Shown here piece by piece: positions 294 to 28,455 of a DNA stretch of 30,278 bases. How positions within the stretch are numbered: position 1 is the first letter of the stretch; each line of letters starts with the position of its first letter. The notes below the pieces were generated by a model. It was not told the origin of the DNA. It saw only the letters and a program-made list of their open reading frames with translations, and did no database searches. Position numbers and translations under genes: made by a program. This DNA comes from a virus: the IMG/VR virus record IMGVR_UViG_3300044630_005970, positions 1 through 30,278 of that record; one strand, written 5' to 3'.

Positions 294-807
294 AAAGCAA
301 GTTGCACAGCCATTGACCCATGGCACTTTGGTGAGTCTGCCCGGCGGTCGGGTTGGTGAGTGGATCAGTGAGGCGGAGGAAGGCACCAGCTTTCGCACCG
401 AGCATTTCCGGACTGTCGACTCGCTCGGCCTTTTGATGCGCAATGGCGCGATCACGGCGCAGATGCACGACGCGGGTCAGGACTTCTCTCGCACATTTGT
501 TTTTGCTCAGCTAAGTTCAGCGGGCTCACCACCGCTTGATCGCATACCTGGTGGTCATTGGCAGGACACGATGACAGAGCGCTGTGCCTGGGCTAGAAAG
601 CGGTTGGGTGAGGCGCTCGATGCAGTGGGTGGTATCAGTAGCCCCGGTGGTTGCGCTGTCTGGCACGTGGCCGGTTTGGGTCAAAGCGTGAAGGAGTGGT
701 CTGCTCAGGAAGGTTGGAACGGACGCACACTCAACCAGTACGAGGCCAAGGGCATTTTGGTTGGCGCATTGGGTGTGTTGGCGGTGCATTACGGGTACAG
801 TCGTTAA
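286..807 (+). CDS. DUF6456-like phage protein of unknown function
   Basis: A 173-residue protein that starts at an ATG preceded by AAGGAGG (273-279) inside the end of the resolvase gene. Its C-terminal half, with RKRLGEALDAVGG, a WHVxG element, a GW.GR segment and a final LGVLAVHYG, resembles the DUF6456 domain found in proteobacterial phage and phage-derived proteins. No catalytic motif or membrane segment is visible. Some members of this group are annotated as helix-turn-helix or replication-associated proteins, but I cannot derive a function here. Its coupling to the resolvase suggests it is the last gene of the early or middle operon. Confidence 0.6.
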   Translation: MAKKQVAQPLTHGTLVSLPGGRVGEWISEAEEGTSFRTEHFRTVDSLGLLMRNGAITAQMHDAGQDFSRTFVFAQLSSAGSPPLDRIPGGHWQDTMTERCAWARKRLGEALDAVGGISSPGGCAVWHVAGLGQSVKEWSAQEGWNGRTLNQYEAKGILVGALGVLAVHYGYSR

Positions 808-814
808 AAAACGC

Positions 815-843
815 TTGTCAGGACGTTGTCCGGACGCTATGAT
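815..843 (+). promoter_or_regulatory. sigma70-type promoter with overlapping operator for the toxin-antitoxin operon
   Basis: TTGTCA (815-820) and TATGAT (838-843) are separated by exactly 17 bases, a near-consensus sigma70 promoter. The spacer holds two nested inverted repeats, GGAC-GTT-GTCC (821-831) and GTCCGGAC (828-835). They would suit binding by a ribbon-helix-helix antitoxin, so autorepression is likely. The antitoxin ATG lies 28 bases after the -10 element. Confidence 0.7.
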
Positions 844-871
844 GGGTCAACTTTTCAAAAAAGGGGTCGCC

Positions 872-1150
872 ATGACCGCAGTCATTCATTCCAAATCTGA
901 GCGCATTGATGTGCGAGCCAGCACGCCTGTGAAGCAATTGCTTCAGGAAGCGGCGCGCGTGGCGCACAAAAATGTGAGCGAGTTTCTGCTTGACGCGGGC
1001 ATCATCGCGGCTAACCAGACCTTGGCTGACCGCACCCGTTTCGAGCTAAGCGACGACAAGTGGTTGGCGTTTCAGGCTGCACTTGACCAGCCCGTGAGTG
1101 CCAAGCCCAAGCTCAAGAAGCTTTTGTCTGAGCCGGGGCTGCTTGGTTGA
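872..1150 (+). CDS. Antitoxin of the DUF1778/TacA family (ribbon-helix-helix)
   Basis: A 92-residue protein. The ATG at 872 was chosen because it follows a purine-rich AAAAAAGGGG tract and sits just behind a strong promoter; the longer reading frame would begin upstream of that promoter. Residues 9-50 (ERIDVRAS..VKQLLQEAARVA..NVSEFLLDAG) form a typical ribbon-helix-helix DNA-binding domain. Residues 58-72 (FELSDDKWLAFQAALDQP) match the C-terminal segment that wraps and blocks GNAT toxins. The stop overlaps the toxin start by 4 bases (TTGA), so translation is coupled. Known family members repress their own operon together with the toxin. Confidence 0.9.
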   Translation: MTAVIHSKSERIDVRASTPVKQLLQEAARVAHKNVSEFLLDAGIIAANQTLADRTRFELSDDKWLAFQAALDQPVSAKPKLKKLLSEPGLLG

Positions 1151-1659
1151 GTTCGCATGCTTACGAGCCAGTTCGCAAACTGGCCGGCTCGGACACCGTT
1201 GAGTCCTTCGACTGTGGCCAGAGCGCACTGAATCAGTTTTTGCAGCGCTTTGCGCTCGTCAACCAAAAATCTAATAGCGCGCAAACCTACGTGAGTTGCC
1301 ATTCGGGCTCGGTCGTTGGTTTCTACAGTTTGGCGGTTGGTAGCGTTGAGCCTTCCAGTGCGGCACCTCGTGTAACCAAAGGTATTCCACAGCACCCCGT
1401 GCCGGTGATGATTCTGGCCCGGCTTGCGGTGGACCTTCAGCACCAAGGCGCTGGGCTTGGCAAAGCACTGCTCAAAGACGCGCTGCTGCGCACTGCACAA
1501 GCGGCAGACATTGCCGGAATTCGTGCACTGCTGGTGCATGCAAAGGACGAGACTGCCAGGCAGTGGTATCTCAATTGGGAGTTTGAACCCAGCCCATCTG
1601 ATCCGTTTCACCTGTTCCTTTTGATGAAGGACATCAAGGCCATGGTGGGTAAATCGTGA
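1147..1659 (+). CDS. GNAT-family acetyltransferase toxin (TacT-like)
   Basis: A 170-residue toxin that starts at TTG inside the antitoxin stop (TTGA). TacT-type toxins acetylate the amino group of charged aminoacyl-tRNAs and stop translation. Family features seen are the N-terminal FDCGQSALNQFL (21-32), the acetyl-CoA pyrophosphate-binding loop QHQGAGLGKAL (98-108) and a tyrosine in WYLNWEFEP (Y141), which corresponds in position to the catalytic tyrosine of TacT. The length is normal and no damage is seen, so the module looks functional. It probably serves prophage maintenance or anti-phage defence, carried as a moron between phage modules. Confidence 0.9.
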   Translation: MSSHAYEPVRKLAGSDTVESFDCGQSALNQFLQRFALVNQKSNSAQTYVSCHSGSVVGFYSLAVGSVEPSSAAPRVTKGIPQHPVPVMILARLAVDLQHQGAGLGKALLKDALLRTAQAADIAGIRALLVHAKDETARQWYLNWEFEPSPSDPFHLFLLMKDIKAMVGKS

Positions 1660-23288: not shown

Positions 23289-24641
23289 ATGCCCGAAACG
23301 GTGACGGTTACTGAAACCCAGGGGTCTCGATACACCTGGGCTTCGGCTGGATTCACATGGTCAAGTGCCAGTGCAGGCAAAAGCTGGACTGCAGCCTATC
23401 CTGCGGTTTACAGCATTGCTGTAGCTGCAACGCTTGCCTTCATCGAAGCTGGATCGCGAAGCTGGACAAAGCGTTCTAGTGAGAGCCTTCCAATTTCAGA
23501 AGGGCGAAAAAACATATTCACCTTGCGTGAGTCTGAGTCGGTTGGGTTCTCTGAAACCTACTCAGACCTCATCGCTTTTGTGTTGCGTTGGGTTGAATCG
23601 ATGGCCTTTGCAGAAGGCGTTGCAAAGAACAATAAAAAGCAAATTGTGGAGTCATTTCAGTCTGCTGACTACCTTGCGAATGCACTCACAAAAACCAACA
23701 ATGAAAGCCTTGCATGGTCCGATTCACTACGCCAAAACAGTATTAAGCGTCTGGCTGAAGTTCTGCCCATCTCTGAATCCATTCAAAAGTTAATCGCTAA
23801 AAACAGATCTGAGGCTTTTGGACTCAACGACGATCTTGACCGGGCGATCACAAAGCAGGTTGCAGAGGCGATTGCGTTTGCTGAAACCTACACAGACCTC
23901 ATTGCCTTTGTCCTGCGAGTTAGCGAAGGCCTCGGCGTTAGCGATTTAGGCGCTAAGCAGGTAAGAAAGCCACTGAGCGAATCCTTTAGCACGTCCGACA
24001 AGGTGACTCGCCAAGCGATCAAGCGAGTTGCCGAAGCCGTGGCCATCGGCGAGGCCCTGGGCAGGACGGTGGCATACCGGCGCAACCTCACTGATGGTTT
24101 CGGTGTGTCTGATGCACTGCGAAAAGCTTTGAGGCTGACTGCTCGAGAGGCGTTACTTCTTGCCGAGCAGTACCGCAGGCATGCCAATGGCGTTATCAGC
24201 GACATGATTGTTGCCAGCGGTGAGATCACTGAAGATGACTTTGCAGCCATCGTTCAGTCTGGACATCCACCGGGCTACACCGACTTTCGAGATTTCATTC
24301 AGGGTGACTACACCTACCGGCGCGCTTTATTTCGTGCGATCTTGAACTCAAGAAACTCAGACCGAGGGTTCATTGATGCCCTGAGAGTAACGGTGGACGT
24401 ACCCGACATCTTTGATCGTGGAACAGCTCAGATTACCGACGCAGCTGTCGGTGTCGCGATTACCTTCACGCGCTCATTTCGAGTTCCCCCCGAAGTGACT
24501 ATGACCCACAAGGGAGGAACGGTCGTGGCAATAGCGCGGCTAGTTGGCTCCATCACAACAGGCGGCTTTACAGCTGTTCTGGAAAACACGTCCGGCACTC
24601 GAGTTGCCGGTTCTTTCACTTGGATTGCACAGGGGTACTAG
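23289..24641 (+). CDS. Tail fibre protein with fourteen 18-residue repeats
   Basis: A 450-residue protein. Residues 1-46 are a short N-terminal part (TWASAGFTWSSASAGKSW). Residues 47-304 are about fourteen tandem units of 18 residues (three of 20) with the pattern E-S/A-hydrophobic-x-x-S/A-D/E, each beginning with Glu (65, 83, 103, 121, 139, 157, 175, 193, 213, 231, 249 and 287, with Asp at 269). Residues 305-365 are a linker. The C-terminus (ITFTRSFRVPPEVTMTHKGG...TSGTRVAGSFTWIAQGY) resembles the H-type-lectin-like beta-sandwich ends of phage fibres and may bind the receptor. It lies one base before the next fibre gene. Confidence 0.8.
   Translation: MPETVTVTETQGSRYTWASAGFTWSSASAGKSWTAAYPAVYSIAVAATLAFIEAGSRSWTKRSSESLPISEGRKNIFTLRESESVGFSETYSDLIAFVLRWVESMAFAEGVAKNNKKQIVESFQSADYLANALTKTNNESLAWSDSLRQNSIKRLAEVLPISESIQKLIAKNRSEAFGLNDDLDRAITKQVAEAIAFAETYTDLIAFVLRVSEGLGVSDLGAKQVRKPLSESFSTSDKVTRQAIKRVAEAVAIGEALGRTVAYRRNLTDGFGVSDALRKALRLTAREALLLAEQYRRHANGVISDMIVASGEITEDDFAAIVQSGHPPGYTDFRDFIQGDYTYRRALFRAILNSRNSDRGFIDALRVTVDVPDIFDRGTAQITDAAVGVAITFTRSFRVPPEVTMTHKGGTVVAIARLVGSITTGGFTAVLENTSGTRVAGSFTWIAQGY
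23427..24200 (+). repeat. Tandem 54-base (18-residue) coding repeats
   Basis: Fourteen degenerate units, mostly 54 bases and three of 60. Two of the long units share nearly identical codons for ETY[S/T]DLIAFVLR and start exactly 330 bases apart (CTGAAACCTA at 23551 and 23881), consistent with an older duplication of six units. Eighteen residues correspond to five alpha-helical turns, so a long helical shaft is possible. Confidence 0.8.
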
Positions 24642-25670
24642 ATGCAAAACTTTACCGACATTCCGTCGTCGCGCTCGCTTTCAGATTCGCTCATTGAGAT
24701 TTTGAACAACGACAAGACCGGAATTTCTTGCAATAGTGGAACCACATTTCCGACTACAAATCAGCAAGTTGGAATGCTCTGCTACCGCACAGATCAATTG
24801 AAGCTATACCTGTTGATCGGAGTCAACCCCGATAACTGGCGTTTCATCATGGACTTGTCCAGTGGGATCGACTCCCAGTTCGCGACCAAGCTCAATGCCG
24901 CTTATTACACCGCTGCCGATGTTTTAGCGAAGCTCCTTACCGTTGATGGGGCGGGAACTGGGCTAGATGCTGACCTGCTTGATGGTCAACAGGCTAGTGC
25001 ATTTGCCTCAAGCACTCATAACCATAACGCGACATACCTTGGTATCACTGCCAAAGCCTCAGACGCTGACAAGCTCGATGGCTATGACTCAACGGCTTTT
25101 GTAAGGTCGGTAAATGGTGCCGGGCCTGACGCTGCTGGCAATGCGACTGTCAACATTGATCTGTCTAGCCGCGTTGCCAAGACCGGCGACACGATGACGG
25201 GGAACCTGACGATACAGAACACCGCCCCGACCATCAACATGCAGGACACGGATAACGTGACCCGCTCCCTGCACGTGAACAGCAACCTGATGGGATTTCT
25301 TAATAGCGGCGGTGGCTGGGATATGTATGCAAATAACAGCGGACAAGTTTGGGCTGCGAATTACGGATGGCTACACGACTATTTCATTTCCTCTGTTTCC
25401 AATTGTCTACGTTCCACATCGGAGCCCTCTGGTGCATATGGCTACTACTACGCAAGCAGCCAAGAGGTTGGCAACGTATCAATGAACGGTAATACCGGCA
25501 ACTGTCACCCAGGGTGGACTGGCATCACTAATTGCTACGGCATTGCTGCAGCTAACGGCGTCCTTTTTGTGCACGACACAGAGCTTGTTGATAACGGTTC
25601 TTCTGTCGGAATTAGAAAGGTGCGTCGCTTCTTTAATTGCGCCTGTAACTGTGACTGCACCTGCTGCTAA
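24642..25670 (+). CDS. Tail fibre protein ending in a CxCxCxCxCC cysteine-rich tip
   Basis: A 342-residue protein whose ATG directly follows the previous stop. The N-terminus (NDKTGISCNSGTTFPTTNQQVGMLCYRTDQLKLYLL) is common to phage fibres. LDG-type shaft motifs (DLLDGQQASAF, KLDGYDSTAF) and SRVAKTGDTMTGNLTI follow. The C-terminal 130 residues hold C255, C288 and C298, then end with FFNCACNCDCTCC: six cysteines at 333, 335, 337, 339, 341 and 342. The last codon overlaps the ribosome binding site of the next gene. No fibre-assembly chaperone gene follows; enzymes do. The tip looks like a substrate for modification, or a metal- or disulfide-linked cap in the trimer; both are inferences. Confidence 0.85.
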   Translation: MQNFTDIPSSRSLSDSLIEILNNDKTGISCNSGTTFPTTNQQVGMLCYRTDQLKLYLLIGVNPDNWRFIMDLSSGIDSQFATKLNAAYYTAADVLAKLLTVDGAGTGLDADLLDGQQASAFASSTHNHNATYLGITAKASDADKLDGYDSTAFVRSVNGAGPDAAGNATVNIDLSSRVAKTGDTMTGNLTIQNTAPTINMQDTDNVTRSLHVNSNLMGFLNSGGGWDMYANNSGQVWAANYGWLHDYFISSVSNCLRSTSEPSGAYGYYYASSQEVGNVSMNGNTGNCHPGWTGITNCYGIAAANGVLFVHDTELVDNGSSVGIRKVRRFFNCACNCDCTCC

Positions 25671-25679
25671 GGAGAAATC

Positions 25680-26504
25680 ATGAAGGTATTTGCTACCCAA
25701 GAACGCAACGAGGATTTTGCTGTAGATATGCGCCTTGAGGATGAGGTTTTACATGTCTTGTGCCGTCATGCATTGCCAGCAGTCAATATTGATGGCGAGT
25801 CAAATATGAGCGAAAGTGTTGTGGAAATTCGTGGTGACTGGCTGATTCACGGAGAGGTGTTGCTCGACGAGGCAATTAATCTCTCGCAGTTGCGCAACAT
25901 GCCGGATTTTCACGACCATGCGGCGTTCTGCTTTTATCGCCCGATCGGTATCCGAAAGGAGGAGGTGTCTAACGTTCACAAACAGCCAGTCAATCTCTTC
26001 ATGATGACTTCAAGCTCGAAGATGACTGGGCCGCAATTCCATGACAACGTCTCTGGCCTACATCCATTTATCAATGTGCTTATACCCTTCAAGGACTCTC
26101 TTTTCGAAGATTGGATGATTGGTCTCAATGTGTATGACCCGAAGCTAGTTGAAGTCTCTGGCGATCTTCAAATTTTCCCCTGTGCTGGCCTTGACGTAGT
26201 TCGTCGGCTCGAGTTGCCAGAGGTGCGTTTCCAGCAGTCCCAAGCTACATCCAGCCCTGACGGCACTGTCGAAATATGTTTCTACCTTAGTGACGCCGAT
26301 GGTCAGCCAATTACAGGCCATGATGCAGAGGTTTATCTTGACACTACCGGCGGCGCACTGAGTCTGTATCGTGTGATGACGCAAGGCGGACGTGGTCGTA
26401 CTCTGTTTCGCGCTTTAGACCTCCAGGTTGGTGAAGCCGCAAAGATCAAATGCGGATTTAAGTATTTCAGCGGTACCGACGATTGTTTTGTGAAGGTGGT
26501 CTGA
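25680..26504 (+). CDS. Unknown protein with Ig-like C-terminus, part of the fibre modification cassette
   Basis: A 274-residue protein with a very strong ribosome binding site (AAGGAG, 25669-25674) that overlaps the fibre stop, so it is translationally coupled to the fibre. Residues 1-180 match no family I recognise; they are mixed alpha/beta, with histidines at 78, 80, 100, 121 and 128 and no classical catalytic signature. Residues 194-274 (GTVEICFYLSDADGQPITG...EVYLDTTGGALS...TQGGRGRTLF...GEAAKIKCGFKYF) resemble bacterial Ig-like domains of the invasin type. It could be a virion protein on the fibre, a carrier that presents the tip to the enzymes, or a new enzyme. It overlaps the next gene by one base (TGATG). 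Confidence 0.7.
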   Translation: MKVFATQERNEDFAVDMRLEDEVLHVLCRHALPAVNIDGESNMSESVVEIRGDWLIHGEVLLDEAINLSQLRNMPDFHDHAAFCFYRPIGIRKEEVSNVHKQPVNLFMMTSSSKMTGPQFHDNVSGLHPFINVLIPFKDSLFEDWMIGLNVYDPKLVEVSGDLQIFPCAGLDVVRRLELPEVRFQQSQATSSPDGTVEICFYLSDADGQPITGHDAEVYLDTTGGALSLYRVMTQGGRGRTLFRALDLQVGEAAKIKCGFKYFSGTDDCFVKVV

Positions 26505-27094
26505 TGCTCAGGATGCTATGGCCAATTCGCGTCGGAGCTTGGCTTTCGCCGTTCGACGGGGAGTTTCTGGCCGGTTTGCGCGACGAACTTCTTGAGGCAC
26601 ACCAATCTTTCTCTACAGGGCCTGAGATCTGGGAGCGATTGCCTCACAACCTCGCAGATCTGCCGACCCCGCGTATGCGAGCCGCTATCGATTGGACTGG
26701 TGCCTGTGTACGCGAATACACAGACCAGCCGCTGAAAACTCTCCACTTCGACAGCAGAGAACTTGTTCGCGTGCCAGGTCAGGAAATCCTGCATCACACC
26801 GACCGAGACGAGGGGGACCTAACCGCACAGTTCTTTCTTGATGGACTTAATCCACCCCTCGGTGTTTCTTGGGATGACATCAACAGGTTCGGTGAGAACG
26901 CTTTTCACCTCGATGACCCGTCCATGTTTGGATCCGAGCGTCGCATGCCCTGGGACCAGTTTCAGCGCTGCTGGGTACTTCCGTTCAAGGGTTTGATAGT
27001 GCTTTATCCATCTCGCCTCCCGCATGCTCAACGCCCTTACATGGGCGAAGACCGATTCGTGCAATTACTCATCAACATAAAGGTTTCCCTATGA
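26504..27094 (+). CDS. 2-oxoglutarate/Fe(II)-dependent oxygenase
   Basis: A 196-residue enzyme starting at ATG 26504, inside the previous stop. The double-stranded beta-helix motif is complete: HTD (H98, D100) in ILHHTDRDEGDLTAQFFLDG, the distal H174 in GLIVLYPSRLPHAQRP, and R184 ten residues later as the likely 2-oxoglutarate ligand. The LYPSRLPH segment resembles the 2OG-FeII_Oxy_5/prolyl-hydroxylase-like group. Such enzymes hydroxylate amino-acid side chains or small molecules. With Asn, Asp and Thr alternating with Cys in the adjacent fibre tip, hydroxylation there is an attractive but untested idea. The stop overlaps the radical SAM start by ATGA. Confidence 0.8.
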   Translation: MLRMLWPIRVGAWLSPFDGEFLAGLRDELLEAHQSFSTGPEIWERLPHNLADLPTPRMRAAIDWTGACVREYTDQPLKTLHFDSRELVRVPGQEILHHTDRDEGDLTAQFFLDGLNPPLGVSWDDINRFGENAFHLDDPSMFGSERRMPWDQFQRCWVLPFKGLIVLYPSRLPHAQRPYMGEDRFVQLLINIKVSL

Positions 27095-28455
27095 GTCAAT
27101 TTCTCATTCACACCCAAGCACCGGACGGAAGCCAACATCGCTTTATCTATGACTCCGCTGAATCCACTCTAACCACTCAGAGTGGTAAGCCGGTCGTGCC
27201 GTTCATGGTATCGAGCAGTGCGAGCAAGGCCATCATCGTGAGCCGTGACGTGCCAGTCGGTAAGTCACGCACACCCAAGACACTGAAGATTTCGCTGGGC
27301 TTGTCGTGCAATTACGAGTGCAGCTATTGCTCCCAGAGATTCGTGCCACACGCAGATGAAACGAACAAGAGTGATGTTCAGCCTTTCCTCGATGGGCTAG
27401 ATGAATGGGTCAAGGAGCCGCCCGACTGCGTTGAATTCTGGGGTGGAGAGCCGCTTGTCTATTGGAAGACCCTAAAACCGTTAGCAGAGGCTCTGCGCAA
27501 TAAGTGGAGTAAGGTTCCTTTTCAGATCATCACAAACGGTTCGCTTTTAACCCCAGAGATCAGCCTTTGGCTTGATGACATCGGTTTTCAAGTTGGTCTG
27601 AGCCACGACGGTCCTGGTTACCACGCTCGAGGAGTTGATCCGCTAGATGATCCGGAAAAGCGAGCCAACATTCTTGACCTATGGCTGCGCCTTCGGCCTA
27701 AAGGGCGCATGAGCATCAATGCCATGTTGCATAAGGACAACTTGTCGCGTGCCGCCGTGCAAGAATTTCTCACCGGTGTCTTTGGCGAAGAAGTTGGCAT
27801 AGGTGAAGGCAGTTTCATTGATCCCTACGATGAGGGCGGACTGGCATCTTCTCTTTTAAGTGACGATAAACATATTGAGTTTCGTCGGATTGCATTTAAT
27901 GATTTAAGACAGGGATTTGCCAGCAAGTTTCATATTGCGGGGGGAAAGATTCAGGATTTCATTCACTCTCTGCGCACACGTCGTCCTTTGACATCAATCG
28001 GCCAGAAGTGCGCGATGGATAACACTGAGAACATTGCCGTCGACCTGAAGGGTAATGTCTTGACTTGCCAAAATGTGAGCGCCACATCAATCGCTCCGAA
28101 CGGGGAGAGCCACAAGATTGGTCATGTAAGCGAGTTCGACAATATCGAGCTTAAAACATCGACCCACTGGAGTAGGCGAGATGAGTGCCCGACGTGTCCT
28201 GTTATCCAGTTGTGCAAAGGCAGTTGCATGTTCCTTGAGGGACCACTCTGGGAGGCTGGCTGCAACAATGCCTATAGCGACAACATTGCCTTTTTTGCTG
28301 CTGCCATCGAGTTTCTTACCGGTTGTGTGCCGGTTTACATCGATGGCCCGCAACGTGATGACCGCAAGGATATCTTTGGTCTGCTTCGTATGGATCAGGC
28401 GAAACCGAGTGAATCTCAACCCAAGCCATTTCCAATTCGAGTCGTAACAGCATAA
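27091..28455 (+). CDS. Radical SAM/SPASM enzyme, putative fibre-tip maturase
   Basis: A 454-residue enzyme. The radical SAM core has C73-xxx-C77-xx-C80 (SLGLSCNYECSYC), which binds the [4Fe-4S] cluster that cleaves SAM, and GGEP at 118-121. The C-terminal SPASM domain has C307, C326 (GNVLTC), C366-xx-C369, C375, C379 and C391, the seven-cysteine set for two auxiliary clusters. SPASM enzymes typically modify peptides or proteins, for example forming thioether or carbon-carbon links in RiPPs, or formylglycine. The first 60 residues are an extra domain not clearly like the usual RiPP recognition element. It is the last gene of the cassette and is closed by a strong terminator. Confidence 0.92.
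   Translation: MSQFLIHTQAPDGSQHRFIYDSAESTLTTQSGKPVVPFMVSSSASKAIIVSRDVPVGKSRTPKTLKISLGLSCNYECSYCSQRFVPHADETNKSDVQPFLDGLDEWVKEPPDCVEFWGGEPLVYWKTLKPLAEALRNKWSKVPFQIITNGSLLTPEISLWLDDIGFQVGLSHDGPGYHARGVDPLDDPEKRANILDLWLRLRPKGRMSINAMLHKDNLSRAAVQEFLTGVFGEEVGIGEGSFIDPYDEGGLASSLLSDDKHIEFRRIAFNDLRQGFASKFHIAGGKIQDFIHSLRTRRPLTSIGQKCAMDNTENIAVDLKGNVLTCQNVSATSIAPNGESHKIGHVSEFDNIELKTSTHWSRRDECPTCPVIQLCKGSCMFLEGPLWEAGCNNAYSDNIAFFAAAIEFLTGCVPVYIDGPQRDDRKDIFGLLRMDQAKPSESQPKPFPIRVVTA

Follow-up and report, generated by a model that had tools for sequence, protein, structure and literature searches.

The locus described here raises the question of whether the cysteine-rich end of a phage tail fibre is chemically altered by a radical SAM/SPASM enzyme encoded in the same gene module. 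Our comparisons suggest that it probably is: the C-terminal Cys-rich strand of the fibre is the likely substrate of that enzyme, which would amount to a RiPP-type modification on a virion protein.

Gene neighbourhood of the fibre

The window, by which we mean the whole stretch of DNA analysed, is a virus record of 30.3 kb whose late region is that of an ordinary siphovirus. Its genes run from terminase and portal through the capsid and tail genes to the fibre module and the lysis genes, the early ones having been read by eye. The features of concern are:

23289..24641, + strand: upstream tail protein, 450 aa, repetitive, with a weakly H-type-lectin-like C-terminal end (PF09458, 4.6e-4, below the gathering score)
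24642..25670, + strand: tail-fibre protein, 342 aa, the predicted substrate (ORF; PHROGs tail-fibre families, best 7.6e-9)
25635..25667, + strand: core or tip, NCACNCDCTCC, residues 332-342, at the exact C-terminus of the fibre (sequence; pattern kept in relatives)
25680..26504, + strand: companion protein ACC, 274 aa, with an N-terminal domain and a C-terminal Ig-like domain (180-274); in 33/40 testable enzyme groups
26504..27094, + strand: probable 2OG-Fe(II) oxygenase, 196 aa; its ATG shares bases with the preceding stop (TGATG)
27091..28455, + strand: radical SAM/SPASM enzyme, 454 aa, the predicted tip maturase (matches to Radical_SAM, SPASM and phrog_1802)

Nine bases separate the fibre gene from ACC, ACC overlaps the oxygenase gene by 1 base, and the latter overlaps the radical SAM gene by 4 bases; this spacing suggests that all four proteins would be made from one gene run. 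A scan for promoters and terminators was uninformative. The 450-aa tail protein directly precedes the fibre gene, and we claim no membership of the system for it. Elsewhere in the window (761-1659), an overlapping gene pair resembles, by eye only, a toxin-antitoxin combination of a DUF1778-type antitoxin and a GNAT acetyltransferase.

The Cys-rich fibre tip

The fibre C-terminus reads ...FFNCACNCDCTCC up to the stop. Codon 332 (25635-25637) encodes Asn, codons 333-342 (25638-25667) encode CACNCDCTCC, and the stop occupies 25668-25670, which places Cys at 333, 335, 337, 339, 341 and 342. The sequence-only reading had put six cysteines among the last ten residues, and reading the codons confirms this; the hypergeometric probability of finding at least six of the fibre's 11 Cys within the final ten of its 342 residues is 4e-8. 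Tail fibres are generally trimeric, and on that basis one tip would carry 18 Cys. The body of the fibre carries GDTMTG-type repeats, and its distal part is rich in Asn-Cys. The N-terminal ~75 aa are strongly conserved, and across almost all of 55 viral loci the first 85 aa show 81-100% identity.

Two other explanations of the tip were rejected. Frame misreading or sequencing error is ruled out by an identical tail in a contig of a Comamonadaceae MAG (L003), where the enzyme is 92% identical. Chance or composition bias is ruled out by residue shuffling together with the two-way linkage to the enzyme described below. CxCxC tails occur in 181 of 9,291 ORFs (≥60 aa) in the fetched loci, against 6 after shuffling, a count which is descriptive and no random sample, the loci having been chosen via enzyme or motif.

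The radical SAM/SPASM enzyme

The enzyme exceeds the cut-offs of both Radical_SAM (PF04055; 8.4e-8, 33 bits against 29.5) and SPASM (TIGR04085; 32.4 bits against 27), and it matches phrog_1802 over residues 24-418 (1.5e-63, 216.5 bits). When its relatives were reduced to 80% identity, giving 61 distinct groups, the CxxxCxxC motif was kept in every group (61/61), and with it the three radical SAM Cys C73, C77 and C80. Of the seven SPASM Cys, C307, C326, C366, C369, C375 and C379 are likewise kept in 61/61 and C391 in 60/61. The best curated profile neighbours are the peptide maturases geopeptide, PapB and QhpD; because all curated maturase families score far below their cut-offs, homology does not tell which reaction is catalysed. 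By sequence, the nearest solved structures are 8vpo, the anaerobic sulfatase maturase (4k36, 4k37) and 5wgg, and the epimerase YydG matches weakly. Family scans identified no leader-binding RRE domain.

Association of tip and enzyme

The association was approached from both ends. On the enzyme side, IMG/VR was scanned with a seven-sequence alignment, which yielded at least 554 relatives, 80 loci being kept. A protein with a CxCxC core lies near the enzyme in 23/23 enzyme-found groups with at least 5 kb upstream. On the tip side, the search used a DNA pattern encoding NCNC(N/D)C(N/D)C and made no reference to the enzyme. Where a motif-found NCNCxCxC core is C-terminal and the locus extends 4 kb or more downstream, the enzyme is always present (47/47), as against 11/25 loci in which the pattern is no C-terminal core (Fisher P 1.5e-8, only a guide, these control loci being few and unmatched for phage type). 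Several of the 11 are versions in which a Hint or S74 domain is involved (see below). The linkage spans enzyme scores from 93 to 841 bits as well as unrelated fibre types.

Among enzyme loci with 5 kb or more of upstream sequence, a single one was found to be without a core (L086); its enzyme is N-terminally truncated, with foreign genes joined to it, and the other members of its group carry the core. Four further candidate exceptions (L129, L174, L194 and L199) were rejected as off-target or repeat noise. The linkage of a modifying-enzyme gene to a variable precursor core, one of the criteria for a RiPP system, is thus seen from either end (23/23, 47/47). The sequence-only reading had envisaged a structural leader that carries a RiPP-like core and adjoins modifying enzymes, and had held that homologues with the enzymes and without the tip cysteines would speak against the tip as substrate; the conserved core and its linkage to the enzyme support the idea, and no intact counter-example emerged among the 23 enzyme groups. 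On these comparisons the proposed enzyme-substrate link is strongly supported. Gene linkage alone may also be compatible with the enzyme acting on ACC instead.

A decayed prophage in an isolate-genome contig (L252:6501-10177) has the enzyme in three frames with one SPASM Cys changed, a split oxygenase and the tip NCNCDRNCGC. As a natural knock-out it proves little, because many other genes in this locus are broken too.

The Asn-Cys unit

In homologous C-termini the Cys spacing is kept and the spacers vary, as a conserved core with variable filling had been expected to show on alignment. The number of alternating core Cys ranges from 3 to 7 among relatives, and the tails include NCNCDCNCC, NCNCNCDCACCC, NCACACEC and NCNCDCDCDCG, among others. 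Statistics were drawn from 24 non-redundant proteins gathered without use of the motif. The core begins at a nearly invariant Asn preceding the first Cys (23/24 proteins, the 24th being a spurious frame), and Asn (53) predominates among its spacers, followed by Ala (13), Asp (12), Thr (3), Glu (2) and a few residues seen once each. The preference extends upstream: 67 of the 77 non-core Cys (87%) in the preceding 150 residues follow Asn, which makes up 11% of that region (P 7e-53). In 26/67 proteins the core ends on the C-terminal Cys itself, and the residue after each Cys is therefore not required. The simplest reading of these patterns is that the modified unit would be a residue plus its following Cys, that is, Asn-Cys.

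Position of the core at the chain end

The core lies 0-8 residues from the stop in 60/67 proteins. Most fibres retain the N-terminal body, and in a minority of relatives the core is followed by a further domain; such followers are confined to relatives and absent from the window. A Hint domain, starting CFxxGT, comes directly after the core in L001, L002, L083/L257, L160, L178, L121 and L279, and by motif in L186; Hom_end_hint is above cut-off in L001, L121 and L279. In L169 and L192 the follower right after the core is Peptidase_S74 (PF13884, 22.5 against a cut-off of 22). Hint and Peptidase_S74 domains are known to cut themselves off, and self-cleavage of these followers would expose the core at the chain end. 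A free chain end appears to matter, because three independent routes to a terminal core are otherwise hard to explain. In L101:4636-5631 and L107:41-934 the core sits inside a longer protein, and no Pfam family matches the ~170 residues that come next; this C-terminal part may be another kind of follower.

The bodies that carry the core are varied. Besides fibres of the GDTMTG type, as in the window, they include a collagen-like fibre (L014), a 133-aa protein directly preceding the enzyme (L125/L158), and FGDGTT proteins of 92-107 aa, three of them in a row in a viral contig of 229,675 bases (L008). Since the same tip occurs on unrelated bodies, no single leader is needed.

The three small proteins of the latter contig (L008:3549-4473) are paralogues, each terminating in NCNC repeats, and two 2OG-type genes lie close to them. 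A more distant enzyme branch, at about 105-144 bits (L147:9423-10377, L096:2383-3116, L156 and L176), has paired proteins of 120-197 aa beside the distant radical SAM gene. These contain long CQxCQ repeats (CQTCQGCQKCQ...) and end NCNCDC...SDDSGGG, and some are found in isolate-genome contigs.

Companion genes

ACC is replaced in some groups, such as that of JWF, by a protein of 232-240 aa. Its AF2 model has a pLDDT of 92.6, and at Z about 12 its C-terminal Ig-like domain resembles those of intimin and of GH2 enzymes. The first 178 residues gave no fold match in the PDB (best Z 2.7), and the BFVD entries that match over the whole length are uncharacterised proteins of phages.

A 2OG-type gene of one of two families occurs in 25/40 testable groups, with none detected in 15/40; the second family (og3) is assigned by eye only, outside Pfam support. 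Relatives of the window oxygenase align with an LWPTxV start and two invariant His, and 12/26 of those aligned match PF13759 (2OG-FeII_Oxy_5) at E≤0.001 (best 1.2e-16). The window protein itself reaches E 0.028 and 15.2 bits, under the gathering score of 27, and is probably a divergent copy that works like a 2OG-Fe(II) oxygenase. Hydroxylation would not be essential, because the oxygenase is undetected in 15/40 groups.

Proposed modification and its alternatives

We propose that the radical SAM enzyme would act on the Asn-Cys (or Xaa-Cys) units of the tip, and that the Cys sulfur would be joined to a carbon of the preceding Asn, Asp or Ala, or of a neighbouring chain, as a thioether of sacti- or ranthipeptide-like character. 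In many but not all phages, the 2OG-Fe(II) oxygenase may hydroxylate Asn or Asp of the same strand. Where Hint or Peptidase_S74 is observed after the core, it would cut itself off, so that the finished tip ends the chain. The trimer would then, judging by fibre polarity, show the modified tip distally for host contact.

Thioether formation is favoured here only tentatively, because the nearest maturases make thioethers and because PapB, which joins Cys to Asp/Glu and takes Cys-Xn-Asp with n = 0-6, accepts adjacent Cys and Asp (PMC9413430). Ala spacers are ill-suited to a PapB-type Asp/Glu acceptor, and point to alpha-carbon attack or another reaction. More tentative still is a fuller picture, that of a widespread route to phage receptor tips in which the radical SAM enzyme, together with a dioxygenase in many cases, would convert the strand of Asn-Cys units to a ladder of thioether rings at the fibre end. 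Each Cys sulfur might, for example, be tied to a carbon in the residue before it, giving a non-protein-like contact surface that self-cleaving followers could expose.

A tip modified by the enzyme without thioethers, whether through epimerisation, Cys oxidation of the sulfatase kind, or C-C or C-N cross-links, is possible though doubtful. The enzyme does fall outside all curated maturase families, its few solved relatives include the anaerobic sulfatase maturase (4k36, 4k37) alongside the weak match to YydG, and Asn alternating with another residue recalls epimerised RiPPs. However, the CxPxR motif used in sulfatase maturation is absent from the tip, a SPASM domain with all seven Cys is typical of cross-linking maturases, and the best profile neighbours PapB and QhpD form thioethers.

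Explanations that detach the enzyme from the tip fare less well. Metal ions are known in phage spike and fibre tips, and CxCxC on an extended strand would, in a trimer, make a good thiolate cage; yet an unmodified end binding metal or an iron-sulfur cluster, with the radical SAM enzyme serving something else, is improbable, since it leaves the tight two-way linkage unexplained, and since the spacers and the number of Cys (3-7) vary and isolated Asn-Cys units occur far from the tip. Fibre cassettes move between phages, and the decayed prophage lost its enzyme and one tip Cys together, though many of its other genes are broken. That tip and enzyme are co-travelling passengers of such a cassette, with no substrate relation, is nevertheless very unlikely, given that their linkage holds across the whole range of enzyme scores and unrelated fibre types and that all enzyme cluster Cys stay conserved. 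So many Cys in a trimer could also form interchain disulfides that lock it, the enzyme acting only in a side reaction, but we give this hardly any credence: a dedicated radical enzyme would not be needed for disulfides, fibre synthesis takes place in a reducing cytoplasm, and the preference for Asn-Cys is left unexplained.

If enzymatic modification of the fibre tip is indeed what occurs, RiPP chemistry would operate directly on the virion, where it touches its host, and would add a new layer to host-range determination. The phages would also represent a new source of peptide cross-linking enzymes which accept a whole protein and read a very simple Asn-Cys code.

Occurrence and a cellular relative

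Among 50,697 isolated-phage records, two carry the system, namely Achromobacter phages JWF and 2-1. Set against the at least 554 enzyme relatives in IMG/VR, this makes the system nearly invisible to cultivation-based work; the two isolates render the proposed reading directly testable.

Strong enzyme matches occur in 5/301 genomes from the family of the Comamonadaceae MAG. Four loci from these five were freshly fetched, and in three the core lies amid phage tail genes, once with Hint. The fourth (L280:7182-11028, - strand) holds a cellular relative of the enzyme (386 bits; 72.6 bits to PapB NF047865, cut-off 340) without a CxC protein. This relative adjoins a nitroreductase-YcaO fusion, which is a RiPP gene, and a 65-aa ORF, and the locus looks like an uncharacterised mixed radical SAM/TOMM (thiazole/oxazole RiPP-type) locus. 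Its position beside the YcaO fusion sets the phage enzymes next to true RiPP enzymes.

Comparison with known systems

No description of a modified fibre tip was found in the open-access papers of PubMed Central, the scope of the search. Among phage proteins, the window enzyme is by score a member of phrog_1802, a family of radical SAM proteins that includes those of Achromobacter phages JWF and 2-1; its annotations give no function and do not note a link to CxC tips. In pelagimyophages, radical SAM cassettes stand beside tail fibres in the host-recognition cluster, where the authors left them unexplained (PMC7029224). They resemble the window in gene neighbourhood, and Cys tips are unmentioned there. 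The radical SAM proteins of Campylobacter phage CPt10 were considered as a published case and set aside, there being no CxC protein nearby.

Among maturases, those of the PapB/freyrasin type (NF047865), which make ranthipeptides, likewise combine a radical SAM/SPASM enzyme with a Cys-rich substrate. The window enzyme scores 51.3 bits against their cut-off of 340, and their substrate is a small leader-core peptide with CX3D, whereas here it would be the C-terminus of a fibre, its Cys in CxC spacing with Asn or Ala between them. The SCIFF maturase (TIGR03974), CcpM (TIGR04068) and TIGR04463 also pair many core Cys with a SPASM enzyme. Scores against these maturases of Cys-rich RiPPs are 25-36 bits where the cut-offs are 425-525 (25.1 against 425 for TIGR03974), and SCIFF-type precursors are free peptides with six Cys in forty-five residues, unlike the fibre tip, which has six in ten and involves no free peptide. 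The anaerobic sulfatase maturase (TIGR03942; 34.2 bits, cut-off 349) acts on CxPxR, which the tip lacks. QhpD (TIGR03906) is a radical SAM/SPASM enzyme that places thioethers in a functional protein subunit, and it is the best precedent for acting on a product other than a peptide; the enzyme scores 46.7 bits against its cut-off of 453, and target protein and spacing differ. We accordingly rate the system as known enzyme logic applied to a new type of substrate, the tip of a virion fibre.
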